A stretch of DNA of 33,873 bases from Comamonadaceae bacterium. GTDB taxonomy: Bacteria; Pseudomonadota; Gammaproteobacteria; Burkholderiales; Burkholderiaceae_C. Shown piece after piece: positions 1,984-25,708 of this stretch. The position numbers and the translations under genes were made by a program. The notes beneath the pieces were generated by a model, which was given only the letters and a program-made list of their open reading frames with translations, searched no databases and was not told where the DNA came from. The stretch spans positions 1 to 33,873 of the forward strand of contig CANFPJ010000016.1 in assembly GCA_947448885.1 (NCBI GenBank). The letters run 5' to 3'. Numbering within the stretch: the first letter of the stretch is position 1; every line of letters begins with the position of its first letter.

Positions 1984-2025
1984 GGTGGCCTTCCGTCAAA
2001 TTGAAACCATTGTGCCTCATGTTCG

Positions 2026-2053
2026 AAAAAAAACCGGCCTCAAGGGCCGGTTT
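2026..2053 (-). terminator. Rho-independent terminator of the cytochrome c4 gene
   Basis: On the minus strand a 9-bp perfect stem (AAACCGGCC/GGCCGGTTT, 5-base loop) is followed by a run of eight T residues. It begins about 25 bases after the cytochrome stop codon and lies before msrP, so it should separate the two minus-strand units. Confidence 0.9.
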
Positions 2054-2078
2054 CGATGCGCGGGGCCAGTTCAAGTCA

Positions 2079-2705: not shown

Positions 2706-2739
2706 GGCTTGGGTCAGTTGGGTGGCGCTAAACCGGTGG

Positions 2740-2749
2740 ATTCTACAAT
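2740..2749. promoter_or_regulatory. Overlapping divergent -10 elements between cytochrome c4 and engB
   Basis: The plus strand reads TACAAT at 2744-2749 (toward engB) and the minus strand reads TAGAAT at 2745-2740 (toward the cytochrome gene). Both are close to the sigma-70 -10 consensus. The -35 boxes are weak: a TTGGGT at 2718 is spaced about 20 bases from the plus-strand element. This is a sequence-based prediction only. Confidence 0.5.
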
Positions 2750-2793
2750 GCCCACTTGGGGTCCACGGGCCCCCCACCCTTGCCGGACCCGTG

Positions 2794-10104: not shown

Positions 10105-11073
10105 TCAATCGACTTTGATCTTGGCGTCTGTGATGACCTTGCGGTAAGCGGCTAAGTCTTTGGCCAGGGTTGCACCCAAATCAGCCGCCGATGAACTTTT
10201 GGGCTCGTAGCCCAGGTCTATCAAACGTTGGCGCAGTGCCGGTTGCGCCAACACCTTGACCAGGGCTGCGTTGAGTTGTGCGACCACCGCTGTCGGTGTG
10301 CTGGCCGGCACAAAGATGCCTTGCCAACCTTCGTAGTCAAAGCCGGGCAAGCCTGCTTCGGCGAGCGTAGGAACCTCCGGGATCAGAGACAAGCGCTTGG
10401 TGCTGGTCACGGCCAAGGCCAAGGCCTTGTATTTACCCGCCTTGAGGTGGGGCAGAGAAATGGCCAAAGTGTCCATGGCGATGGGGATCTCGCCCGATAG
10501 GAGGGCCACGTTCATGGGCGCGTTGCCTTTGTAAGGCACATGGAAAATATCGATGCCAGCCGCACTCTTGAACATCTCCATGCCCAGGTGCAAAGGCCCG
10601 CCCGGGCCCGATGAGCCATAAGCCAGTTTGCCCGGTTGCGATTTGGCCGCAGCCACCAATTCAGCCACCGTCTTATAGGGCGACTGCCCGTTGACCAAAA
10701 TCAACATGGCATAGGTGGCCACACTGGAAACCGGTTTGAAATCTTTCACCGCATCCCAATCGATTTTTTGCAAATGGGGCAAAGCGGCCTGGCCATTGTT
10801 GGCAAACAACAGGGTATAGCCGTCTCCCGCCGACTTGGCCACCACGGAGGCACCCAATGCGCCGCCCGCGCCCGCTCGGTTGTCGACCAACACGGGTTGC
10901 TGGAGTTCTGCCGACAAACGTTCGGCCACCGCGCGGGCCACAGCGTCCACGCCGCCACCCGCCGGAAAGGGTACGACCAATTTGATGGCTCTTTGCGGGT
11001 AGTCTTGGGCGAACACCGGCCCATGCAGCAACCAGCCACACAAAAGCAAGCAAGCGAATTTAAATGTCTGCAT
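10105..11073 (-). CDS. Bug/TctC-family periplasmic solute-binding protein (Bug-1)
   Basis: A 322-residue tripartite-tricarboxylate-transporter-type binding protein. From the ATG at 11073 it has a Sec signal (MQTFKFACLLLCGWLLHGPVFAQ) and then the Bug signature: AIKLVVPFPAGGGVDAVAR with the ligand-contacting Gly-rich loop, NRAGAGGALGASVVAKSAGDGYTLL, and FHVPYKGNAP. Bug proteins bind carboxylates, amides or aromatic acids and are very often orphans in Burkholderiales. It is the last gene of the long minus-strand cluster, 55 bases after the SMP-30 gene. No TctA/TctB membrane genes lie in the window. Confidence 0.93.
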   Translation of the reverse strand: MQTFKFACLLLCGWLLHGPVFAQDYPQRAIKLVVPFPAGGGVDAVARAVAERLSAELQQPVLVDNRAGAGGALGASVVAKSAGDGYTLLFANNGQAALPHLQKIDWDAVKDFKPVSSVATYAMLILVNGQSPYKTVAELVAAAKSQPGKLAYGSSGPGGPLHLGMEMFKSAAGIDIFHVPYKGNAPMNVALLSGEIPIAMDTLAISLPHLKAGKYKALALAVTSTKRLSLIPEVPTLAEAGLPGFDYEGWQGIFVPASTPTAVVAQLNAALVKVLAQPALRQRLIDLGYEPKSSSAADLGATLAKDLAAYRKVITDAKIKVD

Positions 11074-11128
11074 GATCGAGTCTTTGATGTAATGCCTGGC
11101 GGCGGTGATAACGGTGTGGCGCATCCGC

Positions 11129-12169
11129 TCAATAGGCCACGGCCCCTTGCGTATTGACGAACAAGGCATACAGCGAATGGCTGCTGGTCATGTACAAGCG
11201 GTTGCGTTGCGGCCCGCCAAAAGCCAGGTTGGCGCAACGCTCGGGCAGGTGGATGTGGCCAATGGCCTGGCCTTGGGGATTGAACACCCGTACCCCGTCC
11301 AAAGCCGCCAAGTCAGCGCCCACTGAGCCGTCACTGCCCCAGCCACACCAGATATTTCCGTCCACGTCCACCTTGATGCCATCCAAAGCACCCGGTCCTT
11401 GGGCGTCAATGAGCAGGGTTTTGTCTGTCAGGGTGCCGCTTGCGTTGGCGCGGTAGCGCCACACCAAGCGGTGCGGTTTGGCGCGCGACTCCACCACATA
11501 CAAGTGGCTTTGGTCGGGGCTGAAGGCCAGGCCATTGGGGCCTTGCAGGTCACTCACCACCACGCTGAGGGCGCCGGTTTGGCCATCAATGCGGTAAACG
11601 TTTTGCCCCAATTCGGGTATGGCGGGCTCGCCCTCCCAATGGCCGCTGATGCCAAACACCGGGTCGGTGAACCAAATGCTGCCGTCTGCTCCGCACACAA
11701 TGTCGTTGGGCGAGTTCAGGCGCTTGCCCTCAAAGCGATCGGCCAGCACGCTGATGCGCCCATCATGCTCGGTGCGGGTGACCCGCCGCCCCAGGTGTTC
11801 ACAAGCCAATAAGCGGCCTTGGCGGTCGCGGCACAGACCGTTGGCGAACTGCGACGGGGCGCGAAAAACACTGGTGTGCCCACTGACCTCATCAAAGCGC
11901 AGGATGCGGTTGTTGGGGATGTCTGAAAACAACAAAGCACGGTGGTCCCCGAAATAAACCGGTCCTTCGGCCCAACGCAAGCCGCTGGCCAATTGCTCGA
12001 CACCCGCACTGAACAAACGGTAGCGGGCAAAAGAGGGGTCGATGATTTCAATCGCCGGGTCGGGCGAACGGTGCGCCGCCACAAAGTTCACGTGCGCGCT
12101 GGCAGACACGGCCGTGTGGGGTTGGTTGCGCCAGATGTCGGTGTCTTGCGGGGGAAAGGCTGTGCTCAT
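11129..12169 (-). CDS. SMP-30/gluconolactonase-like lactonase
   Basis: A 346-residue six-bladed beta-propeller of the SMP-30/gluconolaconase/LRE family, which hydrolyses sugar or other lactones using a divalent metal. The expected metal ligands are all present: Glu68 in RWAEGPVYF, Asn155 in LNSPNDIV and Asp263 in LDGIKVD; Asn212 in GPNGLAFSPD lines the site. No signal peptide is seen, so it should act in the cytoplasm. It lies between the NTF2-like gene and Bug-1 in the cluster, where a lactone intermediate from ring cleavage or sugar-acid breakdown would be a logical substrate. That role is inference. Confidence 0.9.
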   Translation of the reverse strand: MSTAFPPQDTDIWRNQPHTAVSASAHVNFVAAHRSPDPAIEIIDPSFARYRLFSAGVEQLASGLRWAEGPVYFGDHRALLFSDIPNNRILRFDEVSGHTSVFRAPSQFANGLCRDRQGRLLACEHLGRRVTRTEHDGRISVLADRFEGKRLNSPNDIVCGADGSIWFTDPVFGISGHWEGEPAIPELGQNVYRIDGQTGALSVVVSDLQGPNGLAFSPDQSHLYVVESRAKPHRLVWRYRANASGTLTDKTLLIDAQGPGALDGIKVDVDGNIWCGWGSDGSVGADLAALDGVRVFNPQGQAIGHIHLPERCANLAFGGPQRNRLYMTSSHSLYALFVNTQGAVAY

Positions 12170-12235
12170 ATCGGGGTGGCTCCTAAAGAGGTGGTCTCAA
12201 CGCGGTGCTCAAACCAGTTGACCACTGCGCAGGGC

Positions 12236-12820
12236 TTAGCCCCGCAACCAGTCTTGCGCCATATGGTAGAGCTGCGTTTGTTCGGGTGAATTGTGTTGTA
12301 CCAGGTCGGGCGTGATGGTCGCGCCTTGCAAAGACTGCATGTAGGTGATGTGGCAATAGGCTTTGGGCAAACGCGACAAGCGCTCGGCGTCCAGCTTCAA
12401 CACAGCGCTGGGGTCCACTGGGTCCATGCGGTCTTTTTCATGGATGGGGTGGCGCTGCTGGATGCACCAACGGCCCTGGTGACGCACAAAAAAGTCCAAA
12501 AACCGGCCCCAAGCAGTGATGTCAACCGCCACCCCATCCAGCGCGGCGCGCAGCATCAGCACCATGCGGGTTTCGGCCAAAGCTTTGTCACCCAAGATCT
12601 CGATGCTGCTGGCGCCAATCGAATGCAAAGACTGTGGGGCTTGGGGGTTGTTTGCGCCTTTGATCGAGGCAGCGATGAAGTCCTCTGCGCTGCCCACCAT
12701 CCAGGTGGTTTTGACACTGGCACCCGGCGCATAACAGCGGCGCAATCCCTCCCACTGGCGGGTGTCGCGGCACAGCGCCCAATGGCGCACCACTTGCTCA
12801 ATGGCGTGAGCGTCAGTCAC
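12236..12820 (-). CDS. NTF2/SnoaL-like protein A (SnoaL_4 type)
   Basis: A 194-residue alpha+beta-barrel protein of the NTF2-like superfamily. The N-terminal AIEQVVRHWALCRDTRQWEGLRRCYAPGA is the usual helix pair, and AWGRFLDFFVRHQGRWCIQQR is the core sheet. A C-terminal HEKDRMDPVDP block (with a following L-D) is shared with the protein at 23114-23719. The family includes ring-hydroxylating dioxygenase beta-like proteins, isomerases and dehydratases, so the reaction is not determined. The start is GTG at 12820, overlapping the Bug-2 stop by 8 bases, so the two are translationally coupled. Confidence 0.8.
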   Translation of the reverse strand: MTDAHAIEQVVRHWALCRDTRQWEGLRRCYAPGASVKTTWMVGSAEDFIAASIKGANNPQAPQSLHSIGASSIEILGDKALAETRMVLMLRAALDGVAVDITAWGRFLDFFVRHQGRWCIQQRHPIHEKDRMDPVDPSAVLKLDAERLSRLPKAYCHITYMQSLQGATITPDLVQHNSPEQTQLYHMAQDWLRG

Positions 12821-13790
12821 CTGAAATGCCTGCTTGCTTTAAAAAGCGCGTCCATTTTTCGGCCTCGGCGCGTGAATAAATTTCAGCTTCCGGGACCGAC
12901 ATGCCCATCATGCGCCAGCCCCCTTTTTCCAAGCGCTGGCGCAACTCGGGCTGGGCGGTGACCTTGGCCAGGCCTGCGCGCAGTTTCTCCAATACCGCTG
13001 CGGGGGTTTTGGCCGGGGCAAAAATACCAATCCAACTCTCCATCTCCAGACCATCCACGCCGGCCTCGCGGGCGGTGGGGATTTGCGGCATGGACAACTC
13101 GCGCCGGGTGCCAGAGGTGGCCAAGGGTTTGATGCGACCGGCCTCGATCAGTGGTTGAGCGGTGGTGGTGTTGTCAAAGAACAAATCGACCCGCCCGCCC
13201 AACATGTCGGTGTAGGCCGGTTGGGCGCCTTTGTAGGGAATCTCCACGATGTCCACTTTGGCCAACTGTTTGAACAACACCCCAGCCACGTGTTGGCCTG
13301 ACCCGGCACCCCCTGTGGCCAAGCTCAATTTGCCTGGGTTTTGCAGGGCAAAGGTGATGACTTCCTTCAAGGTGTTTTGCGGCAGGTCTTTGCGCGCCAC
13401 CAAGGTGTAGCTGAAGCTGGCCATCAAGCCCACCGGCGTGAAGTCGGCGGCACTGTACTGTGGGCTCTTGTACAGCCCCAGGTTGAGCGCCATGTTGGCC
13501 AAGCCGCCGACCACCAAGGTGTAGCCATCGGGCGCCGAGTTGGCCACAAACTGCGTGCCCACCAAGGTGCCTGCGCCCGTGCGGTTTTCGACCACCATGG
13601 ATTGGCCCAGTTCCTGACCCAGCCGTTCAGCCACCAACCGGCCAATCACGTCATAGCCACCACCCGGCGCGGTGGGCACGATGATGCGAATGGGTTTGCT
13701 GGGATAGGGGGTTTGCGCCAACACTGGGGTTGCGCTCAAACACGCGGCCAAACAGGCCGACAACATCAAACGGCGTTTCCATGGGTTCAT
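12813..13790 (-). CDS. Bug/TctC-family periplasmic solute-binding protein (Bug-2)
   Basis: 325 residues from the ATG at 13790, with AAGGGA as ribosome-binding site. It has a Sec signal (MNPWKRRLMLSACLAACLSA ending at VLAQ), IRIIVPTAPGGGYDVIGR for the first ligand loop, NRTGAGTLVGTQFVAN then APDGYTLVVG, and IPYKGAQPAYTDMLGGRVD for the second loop. Many of these blocks (SYTLVARKDLP, GSGQH, GAQPAYTD) recur in Bug-3 at 23723-24700, so the two are close paralogues and may bind related ligands. The frame is open upstream to 13880, but the signal peptide fixes the start. Confidence 0.93.
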   Translation of the reverse strand: MNPWKRRLMLSACLAACLSATPVLAQTPYPSKPIRIIVPTAPGGGYDVIGRLVAERLGQELGQSMVVENRTGAGTLVGTQFVANSAPDGYTLVVGGLANMALNLGLYKSPQYSAADFTPVGLMASFSYTLVARKDLPQNTLKEVITFALQNPGKLSLATGGAGSGQHVAGVLFKQLAKVDIVEIPYKGAQPAYTDMLGGRVDLFFDNTTTAQPLIEAGRIKPLATSGTRRELSMPQIPTAREAGVDGLEMESWIGIFAPAKTPAAVLEKLRAGLAKVTAQPELRQRLEKGGWRMMGMSVPEAEIYSRAEAEKWTRFLKQAGISGD

Positions 13791-13913
13791 GTGGTTTCCC
13801 TTATCGAGTTCATGCCGCAATAAATCCCAGCCGCACCACCGTTGACCAGGGGCAACAGGGCGCCGTGAAGGTTGGCTCACCCATCGCTGGATGAGTCAGC
13901 TCAGCCCACACCC

Positions 13914-14933
13914 TCAAGGCATGGTGTGCTTGAGGGCGCGCTCGAAGTACGACAGGTCTAAGAATTTTTCAGGGGCTGGGGCTTGACCACCCCATTGGCC
14001 CTCGATGTCCGCTCGCAAGGCCAACACATTCTTGAAACCTTGCAGATCCAGCGCACAGTCTTTGGACAAGCCGCTACCGGGCAGCATCAACTCGCGATAG
14101 GTCAATTCGGTGAGCCGGTCGTCGAGTTTGAGTTCGCGCTTGAGCACCGCCAGCACCTGGGTCTTTTGCAGGGGGTCTTGGGCTGCGCGGCAACCTTCGA
14201 TATAAGCCGCCATGTATCGCTCAAGCGCCGAGGCGTTGGCCTTGGCCCAAGGCCGCATCACGAACGCACCCACCGCTTGGTAAGGTCCGTACAGCTCAAT
14301 GGTTCGCCCCAGGCTTTTGGCACCTCGGTCGCGGGCGATGAAATTCCAGGGCGGGTTGAGCATGGTGGCTGCACCCGCAGGGGTGTCCAGCCCTTTGGTG
14401 CGGGTTTCAGACCCGCCCAAGGGGTCGAGCTGGTAGTCGCGACCATCGAGCAAACCTGCGTTCTTGAACACCTTGCGCCCGATCAAAGCGTAAGCGGTAT
14501 TGGGCGCATCCACCACATAAGTGCGGCCACGGATATCAGCGGGCTTGTTGATGTCTTGGCGCACCAGCAACTCGTTCATGCCACCGTCGCCACCGGCAAT
14601 GATGATGACGTCGTTCTTGGCCACTTCGATCATGGCCACAGCGTTGTCCACCGCGGCGTGGGCGATTTCAAAACGGCCCGCCGCCAAACCCGCGCGCTGC
14701 TGATCCGAGTTGGGCGTGAACTGCATCTCCAAGCTGATGCCACGGCGCTGGAAATATCCTTTTTCCAAACCCATATAAATGGGAATGTTGCTGCCACCGC
14801 GAAACACGTTGACGCGCAAGGTGACCGGGTCATTGGCCGGGGCCACCACAGGGCTGGGTGCGGCACAGGCCGCCAACAACGCCAAGGCGGCCCAAATGGG
14901 AGAGTGCTTCAATCGTTGCAGCAAGGGTTTCAT
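13914..14933 (-). CDS. NMT1/SsuA-type ABC substrate-binding lipoprotein
   Basis: A 339-residue periplasmic binding protein. From the ATG at 14933 the N-terminus MKPLLQRLKHSPIWAALALL runs into LLAAC with Cys23, a lipobox. Then comes TLRVNVFRGGSNIPIYMGLEKGYFQRRGI, the typical opening of the NMT1/SsuA/TauA family, and FEIAHAAVDNAVAMIEV and AGGDGGMNELLVRQD for the ligand region. AGGAG precedes the start at good spacing, 16 bases after the amidohydrolase stop. Proteins of this type bind sulfonates, pyrimidine precursors or aromatic acids. No matching SsuB/SsuC-type ATPase and permease lie in the window. Confidence 0.87.
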   Translation of the reverse strand: MKPLLQRLKHSPIWAALALLAACAAPSPVVAPANDPVTLRVNVFRGGSNIPIYMGLEKGYFQRRGISLEMQFTPNSDQQRAGLAAGRFEIAHAAVDNAVAMIEVAKNDVIIIAGGDGGMNELLVRQDINKPADIRGRTYVVDAPNTAYALIGRKVFKNAGLLDGRDYQLDPLGGSETRTKGLDTPAGAATMLNPPWNFIARDRGAKSLGRTIELYGPYQAVGAFVMRPWAKANASALERYMAAYIEGCRAAQDPLQKTQVLAVLKRELKLDDRLTELTYRELMLPGSGLSKDCALDLQGFKNVLALRADIEGQWGGQAPAPEKFLDLSYFERALKHTMP

Positions 14934-14949
14934 CCAGTTGCTCCTGTGG

Positions 14950-16053
14950 TCAGCGGGCCAGCAAACGGTTGGCGTTGCCTTGCTGAATTTGCGCCAGGAC
15001 CTGGGCATCCAAACCCAATTGGGTCAGGGCGGCGGCTTGGGTGTCCATGGCCACATAGGGGTAGTCGCTGCCGTACACCACTTGGGTCGATGGGATGAGC
15101 TTGAGCAAGGCTGCCATCGGTGCCGGGTGGGTCGCGTTGGCGGTGTCGTAGTAGAGGCGTTTGAGTTCGGCCTCAATGCCGTTGGGTGCGAACATGGCGG
15201 CGTTTTTGGCGTTGCCATGGAAAAAGTTAACCCGGCCCGCCAGCATTGGGATGGTGCCGCCGGCGTGCGAGAACAACCATTTGATGTCGCGGAACTTGGC
15301 TAAGGTGCCTGTCAGCAGCAAATTGACCACGGCGCGGGTGGTGTCGTGCGGCACCTCAATCACTGCCGGGAAGGTGCCTGTGTTCAAGCGCCCACAGCAA
15401 CTGGCCGCCAAGGGGTGGAAATACACCACCGCTTTGCGCCGGTTGAGTTCTTCAAAAATGGGCGCAAAGTCGGGGTGACCTGGCCATTTGTCACCGTAAT
15501 TGGTTTGGATGCCCACGCCGTCGGCTTTGAGCACATCAAATGCGTATTCAATCTCTTTGAGTGTGCTGGGCACATCGATCATGTTGAGCGCGGCAAACAA
15601 ACCAAAACGCCCTTTGAAGTCGCGCACCATCTCGGCGCCGTAGTCGTTGACCGAGCGCACCATTTCAATCACTTTGGGCAATGGCATGTCAAACCACACG
15701 CCCGGGGTGGAGGCCATCGACAAAATCGATTTGCGCACACCGGCTTTGTCCATGTCGGCCACGGCACCTTCGCGGGTCCAGCGCTCTTGCTGCGGGAAGT
15801 GGGGGATCTTGCGCTGATCTTCCCAATCAAACCATGCCTTTTGATAAGCCGGCGGATAGTAATGGTGATGGGTATCGACCAAGCCTGCGCCACTTTGTGC
15901 CGACACCGAAGCGCCAGAAAGCCCCAAAGCGCTCAAAACGCCCAAGCCGCCAATGCCCTTGAGCACTTGTCGCCGCTGGGGTTGATCGGGGGTGCACCCG
16001 ATGCATGTCAACGAGTGGTGTGTGCATGAACCTGAAAGCAGCGATGTGAACAT
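14950..16053 (-). CDS. Tat-exported amidohydrolase_2 family protein
   Basis: A 367-residue metal-dependent TIM-barrel protein related to ACMSD, LigI/LigW and gamma-resorcylate decarboxylases. The N-terminus has a long n-region with QRRQVLKGIGGLGVLSALG (arginines 27-28), a Tat signal ending near VSAQ. The mature part opens with LVDTHHHYYPP: Asp60, His62 and His64 form the DxHxH metal motif. YFHPLAAS and FSHAGG give the later histidines and VYGSDYPY the final Asp. AAGGAG precedes the ATG. Family members decarboxylate or hydrolyse ring-derived acids. Export is unusual for them, and the substrate is unknown. Confidence 0.88.
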   Translation of the reverse strand: MFTSLLSGSCTHHSLTCIGCTPDQPQRRQVLKGIGGLGVLSALGLSGASVSAQSGAGLVDTHHHYYPPAYQKAWFDWEDQRKIPHFPQQERWTREGAVADMDKAGVRKSILSMASTPGVWFDMPLPKVIEMVRSVNDYGAEMVRDFKGRFGLFAALNMIDVPSTLKEIEYAFDVLKADGVGIQTNYGDKWPGHPDFAPIFEELNRRKAVVYFHPLAASCCGRLNTGTFPAVIEVPHDTTRAVVNLLLTGTLAKFRDIKWLFSHAGGTIPMLAGRVNFFHGNAKNAAMFAPNGIEAELKRLYYDTANATHPAPMAALLKLIPSTQVVYGSDYPYVAMDTQAAALTQLGLDAQVLAQIQQGNANRLLAR

Positions 16054-16083
16054 GAGCGTCTCCTTGTGGTTGATTTGTCTGGC

Positions 16084-17031
16084 TCAGGGTGAGGCGTGGG
16101 TGATGAAAGCCTCTGGTACGGCCTCACCCCACTGGGAATTGAGGCCTTCTTCGGCGGGCAGGTAGTTGGTGGGCGCATGGATGTTGAGCACATCGCTGTC
16201 GCTCCAATGCTCGTGCACCCGACCCCAGGGGTCTTGCCAGTAGTCATACACCTGGCTGCCCAACACATGGCGGCCAATGCCCCACACGTGTTTGTACTGG
16301 TCGCCTTTGCGCAGGTGCTGATGCCCGATCATGATGTCGTCAATGTCTTGGGCTTCGAAGGACAAATGGTTCAAGCCCACGTTGGGGCCATCAATGCACA
16401 AAAAAGTGTGGTGGTCGACATAGGTCTCACCGCGATCCACCCGGTTGAAAGAGGCAATCACGTTCTCTTTGTCACCGGCGTACACCTCGTCGGAGCAAAT
16501 CAAGCCAAACATTTCGCGGTACCACTTGATTTTTTCTTTGGCATTGGGCGTCATGATCACAGCGTGGGCCGCGCGCTTGACCTGAGAGGGACCGGCAGGC
16601 AAACGCATCAACTCACCAGCACGGCGCAGCTTGTTGTCACCGGTATTGACAATGGCTTTGCGCACCGGCAAGGGGGCCAGCTGCTGCATGCCACACATCA
16701 CCTCCATTTGGTAGCCATGGGGATCGCTGATGCGCACCCGCTTGCCGCCACCAGGCTCGTCAATGTTTTCAATGCCGCTGGCGCCAGGGGCTTTGGCAAA
16801 TTGTTTGAGTTGGTCTTCGTTGTCGACAAAAAAGCACAAGCCCACAAACTTGGAGGGGCCCAAATGGGTGACATGGATGTGGTGATTGGGGTCGGTCCCG
16901 CGCATGTACAACGCATCTTTGGTGCGCTCTGCACGGTGCATGCCAAATTTGGTCAGAAATTCTTCTGCCTCATCCAAGCTGGGCGACTGCAAGCGGCCAA
17001 AGGCCAGGTCAGTGACTTTTACATAGGGCAT
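16084..17031 (-). CDS. Two-domain extradiol (VOC, BphC-type) ring-cleavage dioxygenase
   Basis: A 315-residue type I extradiol dioxygenase, which opens catechol-type rings next to the hydroxyls with Fe(II) and O2. It has two vicinal-oxygen-chelate modules (about 5-125 and 150-290). In the second, His156, His222 (GLNHLSF) and Glu274 (VHEHWSD) match the 2-His-1-Glu metal triad. His255 (GIGRHVLGSQ) and Tyr264 (DYWQDPWG) keep exactly the spacing of the acid-base His241 and Tyr250 before Glu260 in BphC. All key residues are present, so activity is expected. GGAGG precedes the ATG, 17 bases after livF. The diol substrate is not identifiable. Confidence 0.9.
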   Translation of the reverse strand: MPYVKVTDLAFGRLQSPSLDEAEEFLTKFGMHRAERTKDALYMRGTDPNHHIHVTHLGPSKFVGLCFFVDNEDQLKQFAKAPGASGIENIDEPGGGKRVRISDPHGYQMEVMCGMQQLAPLPVRKAIVNTGDNKLRRAGELMRLPAGPSQVKRAAHAVIMTPNAKEKIKWYREMFGLICSDEVYAGDKENVIASFNRVDRGETYVDHHTFLCIDGPNVGLNHLSFEAQDIDDIMIGHQHLRKGDQYKHVWGIGRHVLGSQVYDYWQDPWGRVHEHWSDSDVLNIHAPTNYLPAEEGLNSQWGEAVPEAFITHASP

Positions 17032-17048
17032 GGTGCATCCTCCGGTGG

Positions 17049-17771
17049 TTAAGCCGCCTCGCCCAAATAGGCTTGGCGAATATGGGGCTGGGTCATCAAT
17101 TCTTTGGGGTTGCCAGTGGCAACAATGCGGCCGCCTTCAATCACGTAGGCACGCTGGGCCACTTCCAGGGCCAAGGCCGCATTTTGTTCAATGAGCAATA
17201 TGGACACGCCACTCGCGTGAATTTGTCCAATGGCTTCAAACACCTGTTGCGTCACCGATGGGGCCAAACCCAAAGATGGCTCATCGATCAGCAACAACTT
17301 GGGGTGGGCCATCAGCGCACGGCCAAAGGCGACCATTTGCTGCTGGCCACCCGACAAGGTGCCCGCGGCTTGCCAACGGCGCTCTTTGAGGATGGGAAAC
17401 AAGTCATACACCTTGGCCAGGGTTTGCTCGCGCAATGGACGCGCATAGGGCCGGTAGCAACCCATGTCCAGGTTTTCTTCCACCGTCATTCCGCCAAACA
17501 GCAAGCGACCCTCGGGGACGATGGACACATCCAGGTTGCACATTTGGGTGGCGTTGAGTTTGGTCACGTCCTTGTCACGCAGCATCAAGCGGCCAGAGCG
17601 CACAGGGAGCAAGCGCATGGCGGTGTTGATCAAGGTGGTTTTGCCAGCCCCATTGGGGCCGACGATGGAGACCAACTCGCCTTCGTTGATGTGAAAGTCA
17701 ATGTCCCACAAAGCCGGCGCGTCGCCATACGACACATTCAATTGGTGGGCGCTGAACAAAGCATCAGCCAT
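17049..17771 (-). CDS. livF: LivF-type ABC transporter ATP-binding protein
   Basis: A 240-residue ATPase of a branched-chain-amino-acid-type (HAAT) importer. The Walker A is GPNGAGKT (38-45), the signature is LSGGQ (139-143), and Walker B is LLLIDEP (159-165), with LIEQN carrying the switch region. MCNLDVSIVPEGRLLFGGMTVEENL is the LivF-type Q/loop region. The ATG at 17771 overlaps the stop of the fused livM-livG gene by 8 bases. HAAT systems also import aromatic acids, ureas and amides, so the ligand need not be an amino acid; the neighbouring catabolic genes suggest otherwise. Confidence 0.95.
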   Translation of the reverse strand: MADALFSAHQLNVSYGDAPALWDIDFHINEGELVSIVGPNGAGKTTLINTAMRLLPVRSGRLMLRDKDVTKLNATQMCNLDVSIVPEGRLLFGGMTVEENLDMGCYRPYARPLREQTLAKVYDLFPILKERRWQAAGTLSGGQQQMVAFGRALMAHPKLLLIDEPSLGLAPSVTQQVFEAIGQIHASGVSILLIEQNAALALEVAQRAYVIEGGRIVATGNPKELMTQPHIRQAYLGEAA

Positions 17772-19494
17772 GGGGCGTCCCCAAATAAGCGCTGACCACG
17801 GCCGGGTCATTCATCACCTCACGCGGCATGCCGCTGGCAATGACCTGACCATGGTTGAGCACGATCAAGCGATCGCACAGTTCGAGCACAGCGCGCATAT
17901 TGTGTTCAATGAAGATGATGGTGGAACCCCGTTGGCGGATTTCCCGCACCAGGGCCACCGCATTGTTGATTTCAGAGGGCGTGAGGCCGGCCAGCACCTC
18001 GTCGAGCAGCACCAAGCGCGGGGCCGAGGCCAAAGCGCGAGACAACTCCAAGAATTTGCGCTGGTGCAAATTCAGCTCAGTGGGCAAGGACCGCGCCCGA
18101 TCGGCCAAGCCGACAAACTCCAGCCAATACATGGCCTGGGCGGCCGCTTCAGCGCGCGACAACTGGGTGCCACCAAACATGCCCGCCAGGGTGGTGTTTT
18201 CCAACACCGTGAGGTTCACAAAGGGCCGCGGAATTTGATAGGTGCGGGCGATGCCCGCATGCGCCGCCCGGTATGAGGGCAATGGCACCAGATCTTCGCC
18301 TTGGAACAGTATGCGCCCCGCCTCGGGCTTGTACAAACCGCTGATGACGTTGACCATGGTCGACTTGCCCGAACCGTTGGGGCCGACCAAACCCAAAATT
18401 TCACCGCGCCGGGCCTCCAAGCTCACATTTTGCAAGGCCTTCACGCCGCTGAACGACTTGGAAACATGGTCGATGGTGAGCAACACATCGCCCGCGTCGC
18501 CACGGGCGGTGATGACCGCTGGCGCCACCGGTTGGGGCAAAGGCGGCAAGGCACGCTGGCTTTTGAAGCGCTTGATCAGCTGCCCCAAAATGCCATCGGG
18601 CATGAACAAAATCACCACGATCAAAATCAATCCGATCATTGCACGGCCCACCACCGCGTAATCACCTGCCGTGAAGGCATACAACAGGGCGGTGATCGCC
18701 GTGGCGCCCACCGCCGGGCCCAGCCAATGGCGCGAGCCACCGAGCACACTCATCAGCACCACGTTGAGCGGCACCACGATGTTGAACACCTCACTGGCCG
18801 TGACATAAGACACGAACAAGGCATGGATGCCACCGGCCACACCCGCAAACGCGCATGAGATGGCCAAGGCCTGCAACTTGAAGCGGTAGGTGGGCACACC
18901 CTGCACCTCGGCCACGTCTTCATCGTCGTGGATGGCAAACAAGCCCGAACCCAAACGGGCGTTGTAGATGTAGTAGGCCGCCCACAGCACCAGCAACACC
19001 AAAGCCAAGGCCAACAGATAAAAAGTCGCCGAGGGCGACGGCCCAATGGCGGGAATCGGCACGGCCGACAAGTAAACGCCGGGGCCGCCATCAATCGGCG
19101 TGTTGAGGATGATGGTGGCGATGACGAATGTCACGGCCAAGGTCAGCAAGCCAAACAACTCACCGCGCAAGCGCCGCAAACGAAACACCACCGCACCCAA
19201 GCCCACGCCAAACAAAGCAGGCACCAAAGCCGCCATGGGCAAGGTGTACAAGAAAGGCCAATCAAACTTGCTGGCCAAGACCGCCGTGGTGTACATGCCC
19301 AGGCCAAAAAATGCGCCATGGCCAAATGAGAAGTAGCCTGAATAGCCCGACAAGATGTTCCAAGACGTGGCCAGCACCACCCAGTGAAAGATCAAGTAAA
19401 GGAAAGACTCGTAAAACGCCGGTAGTTTGAGCAAAGGCAAGGCCGCCAAGGCAGCACCCACCACCACGAACATGGCCAAGACCCGCTTGTTCAC
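17764..19494 (-). CDS. Fused LivM-LivG: HAAT permease joined to ATP-binding domain
   Basis: A 576-residue single polypeptide. Residues ~1-308 are a LivM-type permease with about eight to ten hydrophobic spans and the GYFSFGHGAFFGLGMYT motif. Residues ~336-576 are a LivG-type ATPase with Walker A GPNGSGKS (371-378) and Walker B LVLLDE (494-499). The ABC signature is degenerate: ELNLHQRKF stands in place of LS(Y/G)GQ, and DEV replaces DEP. Such fusions and signature variants occur in proteobacterial HAAT systems. The start is taken as GTG at 19494, just past the livH stop, with GGAAAG in front. It pairs with LivH and LivF to make one importer. Confidence 0.93.
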   Translation of the reverse strand: MNKRVLAMFVVVGAALAALPLLKLPAFYESFLYLIFHWVVLATSWNILSGYSGYFSFGHGAFFGLGMYTTAVLASKFDWPFLYTLPMAALVPALFGVGLGAVVFRLRRLRGELFGLLTLAVTFVIATIILNTPIDGGPGVYLSAVPIPAIGPSPSATFYLLALALVLLVLWAAYYIYNARLGSGLFAIHDDEDVAEVQGVPTYRFKLQALAISCAFAGVAGGIHALFVSYVTASEVFNIVVPLNVVLMSVLGGSRHWLGPAVGATAITALLYAFTAGDYAVVGRAMIGLILIVVILFMPDGILGQLIKRFKSQRALPPLPQPVAPAVITARGDAGDVLLTIDHVSKSFSGVKALQNVSLEARRGEILGLVGPNGSGKSTMVNVISGLYKPEAGRILFQGEDLVPLPSYRAAHAGIARTYQIPRPFVNLTVLENTTLAGMFGGTQLSRAEAAAQAMYWLEFVGLADRARSLPTELNLHQRKFLELSRALASAPRLVLLDEVLAGLTPSEINNAVALVREIRQRGSTIIFIEHNMRAVLELCDRLIVLNHGQVIASGMPREVMNDPAVVSAYLGTPHG

Positions 19495-19495
19495 A

Positions 19496-20353
19496 TCAAA
19501 TCTTTCCGGGGCGCAACAACAGCACCGCAATCAACAGGGAAAACGAAACCAAGGGCGCCCAAGCTGGGGCGGTGACGGCCATGGTGGCCGCCTCCGACAT
19601 GCCAATCACAATGCCAGCGATCAAGGGGCCCACCGGGTTGCCCAAGCCACCAATCATGACTGCGGAGAAGACCACCCCAATCCAGGCATAAATTTGCGAT
19701 GGGGCCAAAGTAAAACTCAAGGCCAAACAAGCCCCAGCCACACCGGCAAAAGCCGAGGCCGCACCCGACAACAGCAATGCGAGCATGGGCTCATTGACCC
19801 CAAAAGCAGCCGCCATCTTGGGGTTCTCAGCCATGGCCCGCATGGCCTTGCCAATCGGGGTGTAGCGCAACACCGCCCAAGTGGCCAGCGCCAAGCCCAC
19901 CGAGATCAACAACGTGAGCAACTCGGGCAAGGGGATGTACATGGCACCGATCTTGAACTTGACATCGGCGTAATGCGACTCCAGTTTGCGGTAATCGGCG
20001 GTCCACACCCACTGGATAAAACTCTCGATGATGACCGTCAAGCCAAAGGTGACCAACAGCGAGTTGAAAGGCGTGACCTTGAAACGCGCAAACACCCAGT
20101 GCATCGCCATGCCAAACACAAAAAAGCCGGGGGCCACTATCACCAGGGTGATCAGCGGGTCCACCCCAAAACTGCTGGACAGTTGATAGGTGAGGTAGGC
20201 GCCCAAAAACGACAGGGCAAAGTGGGCCAAATTGATTTGGCGCAACATGCCCCAGGACAAGCTCAAACCAAGTCCGAGCAAACCATAGAGGCCACCGATA
20301 AAAAGCCCGGACAGCAAAGACTGTCCGAGCAGCTCAAGGCTGGGAAACTGCAT
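19496..20353 (-). CDS. livH: LivH-type ABC transporter permease
   Basis: A 285-residue inner-membrane permease with about eight hydrophobic segments. Family features are GLYGLLGLGLSLSWGMLRQINLAHF (about 21-45) near the N-terminus, the coupling-helix-like TPIGKAMRAMAENPKMAAAFGV in the cytoplasmic loop, and FSAVMIGGLGNPVGPLIAG near the C-terminus. The ATG is 13 bases after the livK stop and the gene ends 1 base before the livM-livG start, so it is in the same operon. Confidence 0.95.
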   Translation of the reverse strand: MQFPSLELLGQSLLSGLFIGGLYGLLGLGLSLSWGMLRQINLAHFALSFLGAYLTYQLSSSFGVDPLITLVIVAPGFFVFGMAMHWVFARFKVTPFNSLLVTFGLTVIIESFIQWVWTADYRKLESHYADVKFKIGAMYIPLPELLTLLISVGLALATWAVLRYTPIGKAMRAMAENPKMAAAFGVNEPMLALLLSGAASAFAGVAGACLALSFTLAPSQIYAWIGVVFSAVMIGGLGNPVGPLIAGIVIGMSEAATMAVTAPAWAPLVSFSLLIAVLLLRPGKI

Positions 20354-20366
20354 TCAGATCAAAGCA

Positions 20367-21581
20367 TCAAGGCAGCAAATGTTTCACGCCAGGCTTGGCC
20401 GATGCGCGCGGCCAAATCACGACCCATTCGCCGTTTTGCACCTGCTTGACCTTGGAGAGGTCTTCGCCGTAGTTGTTGGTGCCATCAAAGCGCATCGGGC
20501 CTTGGATGGTGTTGACGGTGTTCTTTTTCAACCAAGCGGCCAAGGCTTTGTCGTCAAAACTCTTGGCACCATTGACCGCCGCTTCCAGCACCTGCCAAGC
20601 CGCATATGAGGCCGCCGCCTGCGTGTCGATCATGGTGTCCGGCAAACCAGCCTTGGCAGCGCGTTCATTGAAGATTTTGGCAAACTCGGTGGCGCCAAAG
20701 TTGCTCATCATCGGGGCGTGCTGCTCAAAAATCGTCATCGCCAAGGCGTTTTTCGCGTCAGGTGACTTGAGCATGGGGCCAGGGGCCGGCAAGAAGTGGA
20801 ACATTTGCGGCGCGGCGTAATCGATCTTCTTCATCGCGTCGAGCAACAGCATGCCTTCCAAAGCAATCACACCACCCCAAATGAAATCGGGCTTGGCTTC
20901 TTTCAAGCGGCTGGCAATGGCCCCAAAGTCGCGGTTGCCAAAATCCCACTCCAAATACAACACTTCAGTCAAGCCACGCTTTTTGGCAATGTCGCGAGCA
21001 CCCACCGACATGAAATGCACCGAAGGGAATTTGGACGTCACGATGGCAATGGTTTTGGGCGGCTTGGGGCCGGCGGCCAATGCATCAAACACCAGGTTGG
21101 GACCCGTCACCTCAGGTGAGGGGCCGGTGGCCCAAGTGGGGAATTGCATGTCGTACTTGGCCAAGCTGGGGATGCCAAAGGTGTGATGCACCAACACCTT
21201 GTTGTAGCGTTGAGCCACACCCATGGCCGACAAAATATTGGCGGTGGCGTAGGGGCCAATCAGCAAATCAGCCTTGTCAACCGTGACAATTTGTTCATAC
21301 AAGGTGCGGGCCAAATCGGGCTTGGACTGGTCGTCCTTGAGCACCCACTCGACGGGGCGGCCCAACAAGCCATTTTTCTTGTTCAGCTCTTCCACATAAA
21401 TTTCACCCACCAATTTGTGGATCAAGGCGGTGGCCGACAAAGGACCGGTCAGGGCCAAGGTGCCGCCCACTTTGACGGGGGTGCCCGAGGGCGCGGCCAG
21501 CGCCGACGTGCCGATGGCCATGGCAGCCATGGCCGTGAAGGCCAACACGCTGCGGCGAGAAGAAGATGCGAAATTTGTCAT
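20367..21581 (-). CDS. livK: LivK-type periplasmic binding protein of the HAAT importer
   Basis: A 404-residue binding protein of the Peripla_BP_6 type. The N-terminus carries SSRRSVLAFTAMAAMAIG, a hydrophobic signal with paired arginines, possibly Tat, ending near ALAAP. VKVGGTLALTGPLSATA is the usual start of the mature domain; VDKADLLIGPYATANILSAMGVAQRYN gives the hinge-proximal region. TGGAG precedes the ATG. As the only binding protein here followed directly by its own permeases and ATPases, it sets the specificity of the importer. The gene symbol reflects the system, not the ligand. Confidence 0.92.
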   Translation of the reverse strand: MTNFASSSRRSVLAFTAMAAMAIGTSALAAPSGTPVKVGGTLALTGPLSATALIHKLVGEIYVEELNKKNGLLGRPVEWVLKDDQSKPDLARTLYEQIVTVDKADLLIGPYATANILSAMGVAQRYNKVLVHHTFGIPSLAKYDMQFPTWATGPSPEVTGPNLVFDALAAGPKPPKTIAIVTSKFPSVHFMSVGARDIAKKRGLTEVLYLEWDFGNRDFGAIASRLKEAKPDFIWGGVIALEGMLLLDAMKKIDYAAPQMFHFLPAPGPMLKSPDAKNALAMTIFEQHAPMMSNFGATEFAKIFNERAAKAGLPDTMIDTQAAASYAAWQVLEAAVNGAKSFDDKALAAWLKKNTVNTIQGPMRFDGTNNYGEDLSKVKQVQNGEWVVIWPRASAKPGVKHLLP

Positions 21582-21648
21582 GATTTACTCCAGTGGCTTT
21601 CAGCGAACATCATATTCAGAAAAAGCAGCGAAACAATCAGCGTAAACC

Positions 21649-23010
21649 TTAGTGGTTCTGCATCAACTGGTTCAAATCGCGCATGATTCGCTGACCCGAT
21701 GCGCCCAAGGCCGCTTGTTGGCGCACCATATCGGTGAACAACACCTTGCCATGGCGTTTTTTGGCCTGGCCAGCCACCCACACCGAGTCGATGTTGGCCA
21801 AACTGGTTTGGGTCACCACGGTCGACACTGGGTCATGCACCGGCATCATGTTCAGGTCATCGGCGCGCACCATCACGATATCGGCTTGCTTGCCCGGGGT
21901 GAGTGAGCCAATGCGGTCTTGCATTTTCAGCATCTTGGCGCCCTCCAAGGTGATCCATCCCAAGGCTTCACGCGCCGTGATGGTGGTGGTGTCGGGCAAT
22001 TTTTGATGCTCGACTTTGGACTGGGCATTGTCAAATGCCCGTTGCGAGGCCAAGGCCATTCGCGCCACGGTGAACATGTCACCGCTGATGCAGGATTCCA
22101 AATCCACCCCCAAAGACGGCTGGGCGCCCATGCTGCGCAAACGTCCGGTGATGGCAAAACCATGGCCCTGGAACATTTCGGTCTCTGGGGTGAGTGAAAA
22201 GCTCACCCCTTGGTCAAGCATGAAGCGCAATTGCGCATCGGTCAAATCGTTGCCGTGCACGATGTTGTTGTTGTCGCCCAGCAAGCCTTCTTTGGCCAAC
22301 CGGTCCCAACCATCGGGCACGCGGGCCGCAGCGCCGGCGCAGTGCATGCTGGCGATCAAACCAAACTCGCGGGCGAGTTTGAAATCGTCCACCGCCACGT
22401 CATAGGTGGAGTAGTGCGGACCCAAAATGGCCAAGCCCAGGGACAGCAAGCTGTCTTGGCTGGCAAAGCGGGTTTTGAGCAAGCGCTCAACCTCGCTGCG
22501 CGGATGCGGCACTTCCCAAAACGGTTTCTGACCCGGCTTGGGATCGGGCTTGGGAGAACCATGAAAGAACACCGCCCGAATGCCCGATGCCGCCAAGCCA
22601 TCAATGCCGGCATCGGTGTGTGCCGGCGTGGGGTTGTTGTGGCACCAGTCGGCCAAGGTGGTGGTGCCGCCATTGATTTGATTCAGTGCACCCACCAAGT
22701 TGGCAATATAAATGTCCGATGGCTGAAATAAGGTGGCCAAACCCGCGTGCATCTTTTTAAAGTATTCGATCACCGTCCAGTTCGCTGCCACACCGCGCAA
22801 TCCCGTTTGCCACGTGTGCATGTGGGCGTTGATCAAGCCCGGGATGACGATGGTGCCACTCGCATCGACCACTTGCGCGTCATCGGCTTGGATGTGCGGG
22901 GCAATGGCGGCAATGCGCTCACCATCGATGAGCACATCACCTTGGGGCAAGTCGCCAATTTGGGGATCCATCGACACAACGGTGCCACCGCGAATGAGGG
23001 TTTTGGACAT
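21649..23010 (-). CDS. AtzA/TrzN-like amidohydrolase (cytoplasmic metal-dependent deaminase/hydrolase)
   Basis: A 453-residue amidohydrolase-superfamily protein resembling the chlorohydrolase/SAH-deaminase/guanine-deaminase group. The small beta-sandwich domain flanks a TIM barrel: INAHMHTWQTGLRG has His63 and His65; His223 (SMHCAG), His252 (VHGND) and Asp303 (SLGVDLES) complete the metal site. The usual glutamate three residues after the beta-5 histidine (HxxE) is absent: Gly226 is there. TPETEMFQGHG (274-284) marks a subgroup variant. GEGAG-like AGGAG precedes the ATG. It is the promoter-proximal gene of the long minus-strand cluster, 67 bases before livK. Likely acts on a C-N bond of a ring, but unproven. 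Confidence 0.88.
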   Translation of the reverse strand: MSKTLIRGGTVVSMDPQIGDLPQGDVLIDGERIAAIAPHIQADDAQVVDASGTIVIPGLINAHMHTWQTGLRGVAANWTVIEYFKKMHAGLATLFQPSDIYIANLVGALNQINGGTTTLADWCHNNPTPAHTDAGIDGLAASGIRAVFFHGSPKPDPKPGQKPFWEVPHPRSEVERLLKTRFASQDSLLSLGLAILGPHYSTYDVAVDDFKLAREFGLIASMHCAGAAARVPDGWDRLAKEGLLGDNNNIVHGNDLTDAQLRFMLDQGVSFSLTPETEMFQGHGFAITGRLRSMGAQPSLGVDLESCISGDMFTVARMALASQRAFDNAQSKVEHQKLPDTTTITAREALGWITLEGAKMLKMQDRIGSLTPGKQADIVMVRADDLNMMPVHDPVSTVVTQTSLANIDSVWVAGQAKKRHGKVLFTDMVRQQAALGASGQRIMRDLNQLMQNH

Positions 23011-23113: not shown

Positions 23114-23719
23114 ATGACCCCTGAAATGCAACAACAACTGCGCATCCGCCAACTGGTGGAGAACTGGGCGGTGTACCGCGACGCTGGGCTGTGGGACCGT
23201 TTTCGCACCGTCTGGCACGATGATGGCGTGATGATGGCCACTTGGTTTCAAGGCCCATTCGAAGACTTCATCCGCGTCACCATTGAAGGCTGGAACAAGG
23301 GTGTGAGCATCCTGCACTTTTTGGGCGGATCGGCCATCGATGTGCAAGGCACGCGGGCCATTGCCCAAACCAAAATGACCATCTCTCAACGCGGTTTGGT
23401 CGAAGGCTGTTTGTGCGATGTGGTGTGCACCGGGCGGTTTTACGATTTTTTTGAAGAACGCGAAGGCCGTTGGGGCTTGGTGCACCGCCAGCCCATTTAT
23501 GAAAAAGACCGCATCGACCCGCTGGACCCGGCGGCCAAACTCGAACTCGACCAAGCCGCCTTGGCCACATTTCCCGAGGGCTATCGCCACTTGGCCTACA
23601 TCCAAACCCGGATTGGCTACAACGTGAAAATGGACATGCCCATGCTCAAAGGCGAAGGCGTGCAAGACCTGTACCGCCGTGGCGCCAACTGGTTGGCCGG
23701 CAAACCCTTGGAGCGCTGA
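23114..23719 (+). CDS. NTF2/SnoaL-like protein B
   Basis: A 201-residue NTF2-like protein from the ATG at 23114 (MTPEMQQQLRIRQLVENW). It parallels the protein at 12236-12820: the same helix pair with VYRDAGLWDRFRTVWHDDG, RFYDFFEEREGRWGLVHR in the sheet, and the C-terminal YEKDRIDPLDPAAKLELD block, with a similar YRHLAYIQ after it. No signal peptide is seen. It is followed 3 bases later by Bug-3, so it forms an operon. The enzymatic role, if any, is unknown; SnoaL-type isomerase or dehydratase activity is possible. The frame is open upstream to 22733, but that part overlaps the divergent gene and is not expected to be translated. Confidence 0.82.
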   Translation: MTPEMQQQLRIRQLVENWAVYRDAGLWDRFRTVWHDDGVMMATWFQGPFEDFIRVTIEGWNKGVSILHFLGGSAIDVQGTRAIAQTKMTISQRGLVEGCLCDVVCTGRFYDFFEEREGRWGLVHRQPIYEKDRIDPLDPAAKLELDQAALATFPEGYRHLAYIQTRIGYNVKMDMPMLKGEGVQDLYRRGANWLAGKPLER

Positions 23720-24748: not shown

Positions 24749-24783
24749 CCCATGCGTTTGATAGCATGGGTTGTCGTTTTTTT
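24749..24783 (+). terminator. Rho-independent terminator after Bug-3
   Basis: A 7-bp stem (CCCATGC/GCATGGG) with an 8-base loop at 24749-24770 is followed by TTGTCG and then a run of seven T residues to 24783. It ends the NTF2-Bug-3 unit 48 bases after the Bug-3 stop. The rest of the gap to 24871 shows nothing beyond the next ribosome-binding site. Confidence 0.75.
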
Positions 24784-24871
24784 CACCCAAAGCCCTGGAT
24801 CGCGCCCAGACGACCGATCGACCATCTCGGCGCATTCCTTCAACACAATCTCCCCTACAAAGGTGCATGGC

Positions 24872-25708
24872 ATGAAACGCTTCCTCTCTCACATGGGCCT
24901 GCTGGTCGCCCTATTGACCGCCTGGATGGGCTTGGCATCTGCGGCCTTAGCCCAAGGCTCGGGCAAAACCGAATTGCTCTGGCTGGGCCAAGCGGGCTTT
25001 CGGATCAAGACCCCTGGTGGCAAGATCATCGTCATCGACCCCTGGCTCAGCGGCGGCCCCAAGACCCCAGCACCTTACAAAACCGACTTTGCGGCCCTTG
25101 GAAAAATTGATGTGCTGCTGGTCACCCATGGGCATGTGGATCACCTCGGTGATGCCCCTGCTCTGGCCAAGCTCAATAACACCATCCTGTACGGCCCTGC
25201 CGACATGGTGACCCCGCTGATCACCCTGGGTTTGATCCCCGCCAACTTGAGCCATCGCTTCAACAAAACCGGGCATGTCAAACCAGCGCCTGGCATCAAA
25301 GTCACCGCCGTGGCGGCTGAGCATTCCTCCCTCATCGTGCACCCCAACCCGGTCACCGGCAAACTCGAATCGCACCCCGCTGGGGAAGCCGTGGGCTACA
25401 TCATTGAAATGGAAAACGGCTTCAAAATTTGGCACATGGGCGATACCGGTTTGTTTGGTGACATGAAGTTCATCAGCGAACGCTACAAACCCGATTTGGT
25501 GCTGATGCCGATTGGTGGCAACTTCACCATGGACCCCGAAGACGCCGCCTGGGGTGCGCGCCAATGGATCAACCCCAAAATGGTCATCCCCATCCACTAC
25601 AACTCCAACCCTTTGGCCAAAGGCACCTTGGCTGAATTTCAAGAGGCCATGAAAGGCAGCCCCATCAAGGTGATTCCCATGAGCGAAGGCCAAACCGTTG
25701 AATTTTGA
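24872..25708 (+). CDS. Exported metallo-beta-lactamase-fold hydrolase (UPF0173-like)
   Basis: A 278-residue metal-dependent hydrolase. From the ATG at 24872 it has a signal peptide (MKRFLSHMGLLVALLTAWMG to AALAQ), then ELLWLGQAGFRIKTPGGKII typical of the UPF0173/YtkL group, and THGHVDHLGD with His86, His88, Asp90 and His91 for the two metal ions. HMGDTGLFGDM and VIPIHYNSNP supply the later ligands. UPF0173 proteins are usually cytoplasmic and of unknown function, so the signal peptide is worth noting. AAAGG lies upstream of the start. It lies 42 bases before Bug-4. Confidence 0.88.
   Translation: MKRFLSHMGLLVALLTAWMGLASAALAQGSGKTELLWLGQAGFRIKTPGGKIIVIDPWLSGGPKTPAPYKTDFAALGKIDVLLVTHGHVDHLGDAPALAKLNNTILYGPADMVTPLITLGLIPANLSHRFNKTGHVKPAPGIKVTAVAAEHSSLIVHPNPVTGKLESHPAGEAVGYIIEMENGFKIWHMGDTGLFGDMKFISERYKPDLVLMPIGGNFTMDPEDAAWGARQWINPKMVIPIHYNSNPLAKGTLAEFQEAMKGSPIKVIPMSEGQTVEF

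Follow-up and report, generated by a model that had tools for sequence, protein, structure and literature searches.

What does the long minus-strand gene cluster at 10105-23010 of contig CANFPJ010000016.1 break down, and which of its genes belong together? The window analyzed here is that entire contig, 33,873 nucleotides from a Comamonadaceae bacterium whose genome (GCA_947448885.1) is 88.49% complete and amounts to 3.35 Mb in 215 contigs. Several relatives come from lake and river samples, judging by their record titles, and many ring-opening pathways of such bacteria have yet to be matched to a substrate. The codirectional uptake-and-catabolism cluster is confirmed as real, and its conserved core consists of six genes. 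They encode the LivK, LivH, fused LivM-LivG (LivMG), and LivF parts of an HAAT importer, an extradiol dioxygenase (EDO), and AmidoH2, an amidohydrolase with a twin-arginine (Tat) signal. With evenly balanced confidence, we read this core as serving the breakdown of a carboxylated aromatic compound, one that is ortho-dihydroxylated from the start or made so, with a route leading from AmidoH2 through the importer and EDO to a FAH-family hydrolase. On this reading, the novelty lies in a meta-cleavage module for catabolism whose Tat-type partner is unusual.

A six-gene block and sites without it

EDO, LivK, AmidoH2, and AmidoH1 (the amidohydrolase encoded by the first gene of the cluster) were sampled in 61 genomes of the genus, own genome included unless stated. 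Close EDO relatives came from a pattern-based scan of genome contigs, in which 17 loci were confirmed from 25 candidate stretches. Two genomes from other species of the genus, G048 and G056, carry exactly LivK-LivH-LivMG-LivF-EDO-AmidoH2 between shared flanks, with a hemL-like gene and a 159-aa open reading frame (ORF) on one side and DUF6172 followed by a DEAD-box helicase on the other. DUF6172 was found in 44 of the 61 genomes, and 30 of its loci were fetched: 2 are occupied, 15 show the same flanks without the block, and 13 are uninformative. At the 15 empty sites the flanks lie 8-618 bases apart, with the 159-aa ORF at 57-79 bases in 8 cases and hemL at 8-618 bases in 7. The six genes are thus present or absent as one block at the hemL-DUF6172 site, and as such they offer a small testable package of two enzymes and one importer.

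The tail genes beyond the core (SsuA, Bugs, SnoaL, SMP-30) vary and are outside the block. Locus L006 of genome G002 keeps the order from LivK through SMP-30, and L007 keeps it from AmidoH1 through SsuA, together with the SnoaL and Bug genes of the divergent group. Two Hylemonella-named loci, L011 and L012, run from AmidoH1 through EDO in order, followed by SsuA and a FAH hydrolase; an SsuA homolog follows EDO in L010-L012. The arrangement in L009 has the importer, a DUF4440/SnoaL-like gene, a malonic semialdehyde reductase (opposite strand), a pcaF-type thiolase, and then EDO, with the reductase and thiolase both above their cut-offs. This locus (CAMAWC010000010.1) comes from a metagenome-assembled genome titled Bordetella parapertussis, a name that looks doubtful, and its importer and EDO are at 70-84% identity. 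The original prediction had treated the whole cluster as an uptake-and-catabolism unit and proposed searching related genomes for the same gene set; the core is indeed conserved together, and the tail is variable. The gene set was not found in the literature among the titles and abstract starts of the matches listed, a search with subscription papers outside its reach.

A second, more distant version of the system occurs in G012, G019, and G050 (L039, L040, and L063/L064). It has an HAAT importer with a fused LivMG at 52-61% and an AmidoH2 at 65-67%. Importer and AmidoH2 share a contig except in G050, where they are split between contigs and LivF and part of LivMG accompany AmidoH2. Another VOC dioxygenase adjoins AmidoH2, at 27-28% to EDO where complete (L040, L063), and in L040 a cyclase-family gene comes next. 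This version supports the importer, AmidoH2, and a dioxygenase as a recurring team.

Co-occurrence points the same way. With thresholds of E<=1e-80 for LivK, at least 65% for AmidoH2, and at least 53% for EDO, LivK and AmidoH2 are both present in 14 of the 61 genomes, LivK only in 3, and AmidoH2 only in 0. Leaving out the own genome, the counts are 13, 3, and 0 (p=1.1e-10, an optimistic value like the other p-values given here, as the sample consists of related, incomplete genomes and the thresholds were set after the hits were seen). All six EDO-carrying genomes also hold LivK and AmidoH2.

That optimism is one of several points that weigh against a single catabolic unit. The block is rare: EDO at 53% or above occurs in only 6 of the 61 genus genomes and an EDO homolog in 7 of 399 family genomes, six of them at 38-44% (own genome included in both counts). 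EDO and AmidoH1 are shared by only 3 of the 61 genomes (p=0.05). EDO is the sole window gene found in 8 of the 17 EDO loci (L013-L020), several of which are short contigs. In L008, EDO is followed by just the first part of AmidoH2 and then by other genes, and the Hylemonella-named loci have no AmidoH2 homolog after EDO. AmidoH2 homologs sometimes lie far from LivK (25 kb in G018), and in G058, where LivK-LivH-LivMG run up to the contig end, EDO was not found. The predicted structure of AmidoH2 is also weak (pLDDT 70.9, with residues 1-55 below 50).

Ring cleavage, predicted export, and a companion operon

Sequence and predicted fold place EDO among the type I (VOC) two-domain extradiol ring-cleaving dioxygenases. 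Across all 28 sequences compared (stop-free matches with 85% coverage, window copy L109 included), down to 28% identity, residues H156, H222, E274, H207, H208, H255, and Y264 do not vary; we take them to supply the 2-His-1-Glu metal site and the catalytic His and Tyr. The predicted structure (pLDDT 89.8) gave Foldseek E-values of 1.1e-19 to 1f1x, 2.9e-19 to 1mpy, and 3.9e-20 to 7q2a, and its matches include 3b59, AphC, and homoprotocatechuate and catechol 2,3-dioxygenases. Ring opening by an intact active site, as the original prediction had it, is therefore well founded. EDO falls far below the three NCBIfam extradiol equivalog cut-offs that it matched (HpaD, 65.6 against 321.4 bits; catechol 2,3-dioxygenase, 62.3 against 320.2; BphC, 48.9 against 366.45), so its substrate is not readable from family membership.

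The neighbors of EDO relatives give some idea of the partners involved. Among plasmid records, 38 matched an EDO relative, 15 were listed, and 5 were viewed; a FAH gene lies within three genes of the EDO relative in all five. An amidohydrolase adjoins in one of these loci and is two genes off in another, and a flavin hydroxylase adjoins in one (Microvirga), as it does in L021. The EDO neighbors in L020 include an AMP-binding ligase, an alpha/beta hydrolase, an iron alcohol dehydrogenase-family gene, and a ring-hydroxylating beta subunit.

AmidoH2 has the HxH, H, H, D metal site expected of an ACMSD-like protein, with H62, H64, H213, H263, and D330 invariant in 15 of 15 sequences; presumably these correspond to the ACMSD metal ligands. 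Its best PDB match is a metal-dependent hydrolase (E=2e-21), followed by ACMSD (1.3e-19), and it has no NCBIfam match at 0.001. The window copy has RR before a hydrophobic stretch, which marks it as a putative Tat substrate, and all 19 homologs at 55% or above have RR or (in two) KR ahead of such a stretch. Within 32 residues upstream of the RR or KR, 17 of these 19 also have a C-x-C or C-x-x-C pair (16 of 18 when counted as distinct hits, since the 19 include the window copy and L008, whose N-terminus repeats that of L007); the remaining two have two or three Cys there, differently spaced. Of the 26 homologs below 55%, drawn like the others from L034-L065 and L109-L136, 3 are without a Tat-like stretch, and the 23 with one divide into 11 with the Cys pair and 12 without it. 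Other Tat-like ORFs in the loci read served as a control and have the pair in 0 of 18, by criteria that differed slightly (RR required, 35 residues upstream considered, ORFs left untrimmed at the start). C17 and C20 are invariant in the 15-sequence AmidoH2 alignment despite the poorly conserved signal region around them.

One explanation for this pair would be an export check. The pathway would start outside the cytoplasm, with AmidoH2 sent through Tat as a folded metalloenzyme, and the Cys pair would sense metal state or redox state, or dock a chaperone, so that only the loaded enzyme passes. An HAAT pump specific for aromatics would then import the product for ring opening. We regard this as decidedly improbable; if true, a Tat signal marked by Cys in this way would represent a novel type of export checkpoint in an exported amidohydrolase family. 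Cys pairs in the n-regions of Tat signals were not found in the literature, again among titles and abstract starts of the matches listed. AmidoH2 homologs also belong to a gene set repeated within the genus (L045 2905-9904, L060 1443-8619), together with a metallo-beta-lactamase-fold protein, a GST, an Amdase-family protein, a flavin monooxygenase, and two Bugs.

The original prediction listed a ring hydroxylase and a hydrolase or dehydrogenase for the ring-opened product as missing from the window. Candidates are found elsewhere in the genome, where Ring_hydroxyl_A matches at 9 places, FAA_hydrolase at 19, and FAD_binding_3 at 29, though many of the FAD_binding_3 matches are weak. A companion five-gene set on contig C37 (L038 8613-13062) encodes a reductase (Fer2/FAD/NAD, BenC-like, below cut-off), a small VOC protein, a LivK paralog (LivK2), another small VOC protein, and a FAH protein that is below the HpaG cut-offs. 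The set recurs at 76-88% identity in G048, which holds the whole core, and in G058, which holds LivK-LivH-LivMG; in G056 a LivK homolog of 64% sits where a contig ends. Because the 16.8 kb read yielded no permease gene alongside LivK2, this protein may feed the pump encoded in the window. Homologs of this reductase and of the small protein are also encoded no more than ~4 kb away from an AmidoH2 homolog in L045 and L057. The companion operon is thus a candidate for the missing hydrolase and is tied to the core cluster. Within ~3 kb of this operon there is a FAD_binding_3 protein in G048 (L050 13268-14410) and an AMP-binding ligase in G058 (L049 4556-6181), which by eye resemble salicylyl-CoA hydroxylase and aryl-AMP ligase, respectively.

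The pathway we infer, in its order of steps, in the location of AmidoH2, and in the role given to the companion operon, would run as follows. Tat-type, ACMSD-like AmidoH2 would act in the periplasm and trim the substrate, probably by decarboxylation or hydrolysis. LivK would bind the product for import by the LivH/LivMG/LivF pump, and a hydroxylase encoded elsewhere would make the catechol if one is needed. EDO would then open the ring next to the two hydroxyls, and a FAH-family hydrolase would cleave the ring-opened acid toward central metabolism, supplied by the companion operon here and from inside the cluster in the Hylemonella-named loci. AmidoH1 and the tail genes would have accessory roles, widening the substrate range or dealing with side products.

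AmidoH1, nitrogen, and rival explanations

AmidoH1 scores 607.7 bits against PRK08204 (cut-off 391) and passes no other cut-off among the 25 of 62 families listed. All 13 sequences compared, the window copy and 12 homologs, retain the metal ligands of the TRZ/ATZ group (H63/H65, H223, H252, D303). The catalytic Glu of the HxxE motif is missing from all 13, which have Gly at 226 (HCAG or HQGG). Four of the five PDB relatives shown align at HxxE and all four have the Glu (3hpa, 3lnp, 4f0r, 7ww2); AtzA and TrzN are outside the alignment. The missing Glu makes C-N hydrolysis in the style of AtzA or TrzN doubtful, and the original proposal of an AtzA/TrzN-like enzyme for this step is not supported, given the loss of the group's catalytic residue. 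Plasmid relatives of AmidoH1 number 76 records at E<=1e-60, of which 10 were listed and 4 viewed. The fourth context viewed, from Variovorax, is much like the window set (Bug, amidohydrolase, hypothetical, NTF2, Bug, GMC, AmidoH1). A maleylacetate reductase route in the own genome was rejected after a single query, run with no positive control, returned no homolog of the Skermanella enzyme.

The view of the earlier reader was that a nitrogen-bearing aromatic or heterocycle is degraded. AmidoH1 would remove the nitrogen and EDO would open the ring; in a variant of this view, AmidoH1 itself would open a dihydroxypyridine, like KpiC. A nitrogen-bearing ring is possible, and retention of the AmidoH1 metal ligands with loss of the hydrolytic Glu in every sequence is what changed chemistry would allow. 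At L046, genes like AndAd (anthranilate dioxygenase small subunit) and glutamine synthetase, both below cut-off, lie 8-10 kb from a 67% AmidoH1 homolog, and in Bosea a 41% AmidoH2 homolog adjoins an isochorismatase-family gene near HAAT and creatininase genes. Two Bordetella Bug proteins are reported to bind quinolinate (PMC11452294). However, three of the four AmidoH1 plasmid contexts viewed contain an intradiol dioxygenase and a maleylacetate reductase, a benzenoid route, and no hydroxypyridine-specific enzyme was recognized in the Pfam search of 40 window ORFs. The nearest characterized relative of KpiC is an enamidase at 28%, and KpiC may lie outside the AmidoH1 subfamily (PMC7356986). We consider the nitrogen view unlikely and do not accept an N-heterocycle as an established substrate. 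A riboflavin/lumichrome pathway (PMC12746152) was also set aside, with no P450 or thiamin enzyme recognized among the window ORFs searched.

It is less doubtful, though still on the improbable side, that the cluster is a patchwork in which the six-gene core alone is functional and AmidoH1 and the tail were added in this lineage for other substrates. G048 and G056 have the core by itself, and AmidoH1 was not found in either; AmidoH1 occurs in 9 other genus genomes, 7 of them without EDO and the other two (G018, G034) with a 53% EDO on a different contig. The last Bug is missing in L006, and Bug genes are common in the loci read. A patchwork fits less well with AmidoH1 adjoining LivK in the window, L007, L011, and L012, with an SsuA homolog after EDO or AmidoH2 in the window, L006, L007, and L010-L012, and with the co-occurrence of AmidoH1 and LivK (p=0.00077 without the own genome, subject to the same optimism). 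The importer itself could be an ordinary branched-chain amino acid transporter that by chance lies beside aromatic genes, as the family matches to LivK, LivH, LivM, LivG, and LivF would allow. This is very improbable: the model scores of LivF (246.1 against a cut-off of 441) and LivK (63.7 against 477) are far too low, the block moves with EDO and AmidoH2, and a LivK paralog resides within the FAH operon. We take the ligand contacts of the Leu/Ile/Val-binding protein to be S79, T102, Y202, and E226; in one pairwise alignment LivK has T113 for S79, G136 for T102, V238 for Y202, and P267 for E226, leaving three of the four contacts without a counterpart. A branched-chain importer is disfavored by these low scores and unkept residues, and import of an aromatic ahead of ring cleavage by EDO is the reading we retain.

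The surrounding window and known systems

The original prediction counted eleven minus-strand genes; 12 ORFs were found in 10105-23010, and the rest of its description stands, as the order and family calls hold by Pfam matches (Table 1). That includes the complete HAAT importer, for which domains were found for the binding protein, two permeases, and two ATPases; in the LivM-LivG fusion they are BPD_transp_2 at 41-306, ABC_tran at 366-512, and BCA_ABC_TP_C at 562-587. The spacing between ORFs, from -59 to 67 bases, agrees with the overlaps and short gaps of at most ~120 bases described earlier, and one gap would become ~120 bases if the Bug at 12813-13880 started at a later Met ahead of its signal peptide. 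The true start of the SsuA/NMT1-like lipoprotein is probably ~75 bases inside the called ORF.

Table 1. Genes of the cluster and of the adjacent divergent group in the window
Feature	Coordinates	Strand	Basis
AmidoH1, first gene, Amidohydro_1, PRK08204 subfamily	21649..23010	-	Pfam, NCBIfam
LivK-type periplasmic binding protein, Peripla_BP_6 (core)	20367..21581	-	Pfam
LivH permease, BPD_transp_2 (core)	19496..20353	-	Pfam
LivM-LivG fusion, permease and ATPase, 588 aa (core)	17764..19530	-	Pfam
LivF ATPase, ABC_tran (core)	17049..17810	-	Pfam
EDO, putative type I (VOC) extradiol dioxygenase, Glyoxalase/dioxygenase family (core)	16084..17031	-	Pfam, residues, fold
AmidoH2, ACMSD-like Amidohydro_2, twin-arginine signal preceded by C17/C20 (core)	14950..16053	-	Pfam, alignment
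SsuA/NMT1-like lipoprotein (NMT1)	13914..15008	-	Pfam
TctC/Bug solute-binding protein 1	12813..13880	-	Pfam
SnoaL_4 (NTF2-like) protein	12236..12820	-	Pfam
SMP-30/gluconolactonase-like protein (SGL)	11129..12169	-	Pfam
TctC/Bug protein 2, missing from otherwise collinear L006	10105..11169	-	Pfam
Divergent SnoaL_4 gene, possible start 23114, 103 bases from AmidoH1	23114..23719	+	
Divergent TctC/Bug, 90% homolog at equivalent position in L007	23723..24700	+	
Metallo-beta-lactamase-fold protein	24752..25708	+	

The divergent group has the order SnoaL_4, Bug, metallo-beta-lactamase fold, Bug. Its SnoaL_4 gene has a 93% homolog at the equivalent position in L007, and L045 and L060 have homologs of the metallo-beta-lactamase-fold protein (67-72%) at a distance of 5-6 kb from their AmidoH2 homologs. 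There are five TctC/Bug proteins on the 34-kb contig (10105-31419), and no TctA or TctB was found among the 40 ORFs searched in Pfam. Between 10000 and 23800, 1 promoter-like site was found against 4.0 expected and 21 terminator-like sites against 19.8 expected; the window has no Rfam match at the gathering threshold, and no tRNA gene was found in it. One terminator-like hairpin early in livH (20305-20330, minus strand; 11 pairs and a T-run) is probably explained by the conserved protein stretch LGQSLLSG; all 8 close homologs compared retain the stem, and none of the 3 at 55% has it. At 976-3017 on the minus strand, an Oxidored_molyb protein adjoins a cytochrome c protein, a pair that we take to resemble a sulfite-dehydrogenase-like unit.

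Homoprotocatechuate and catechol meta-cleavage operons share with this cluster a VOC extradiol dioxygenase with its fold and 2-His-1-Glu site, as well as a FAH-family partner, found here in the loci of EDO relatives and in the companion operon. They differ in that EDO reaches 65.6 bits where HpaD requires 321.4, the companion FAH is below the HpaG cut-offs, no semialdehyde dehydrogenase was seen in the cluster, and an HAAT importer and a Tat-type Amidohydro_2 protein are added here. AmidoH2 shares its family and the H62/H64/H213/H263/D330 site with ACMSD/LigW-type Amidohydro_2 decarboxylases, whereas the twin-arginine signal peptide with its Cys pair is a feature of AmidoH2. KpiC of Arthrobacter is an Amidohydro_1 protein reported as an extradiol dioxygenase, and the 4-hydroxypyridine kpi cluster likewise uses Amidohydro_1 and FAH-family proteins in a ring-opening pathway (PMC7356986). 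Compared by description only, the cluster studied here has a separate VOC dioxygenase and no flavin monooxygenase. Plasmid clusters of Paraburkholderia, Bosea, and Skermanella include a 61-64% AmidoH1 homolog as a member, but they use intradiol ring cleavage with maleylacetate reductase, read as a hydroxyquinol-type route.

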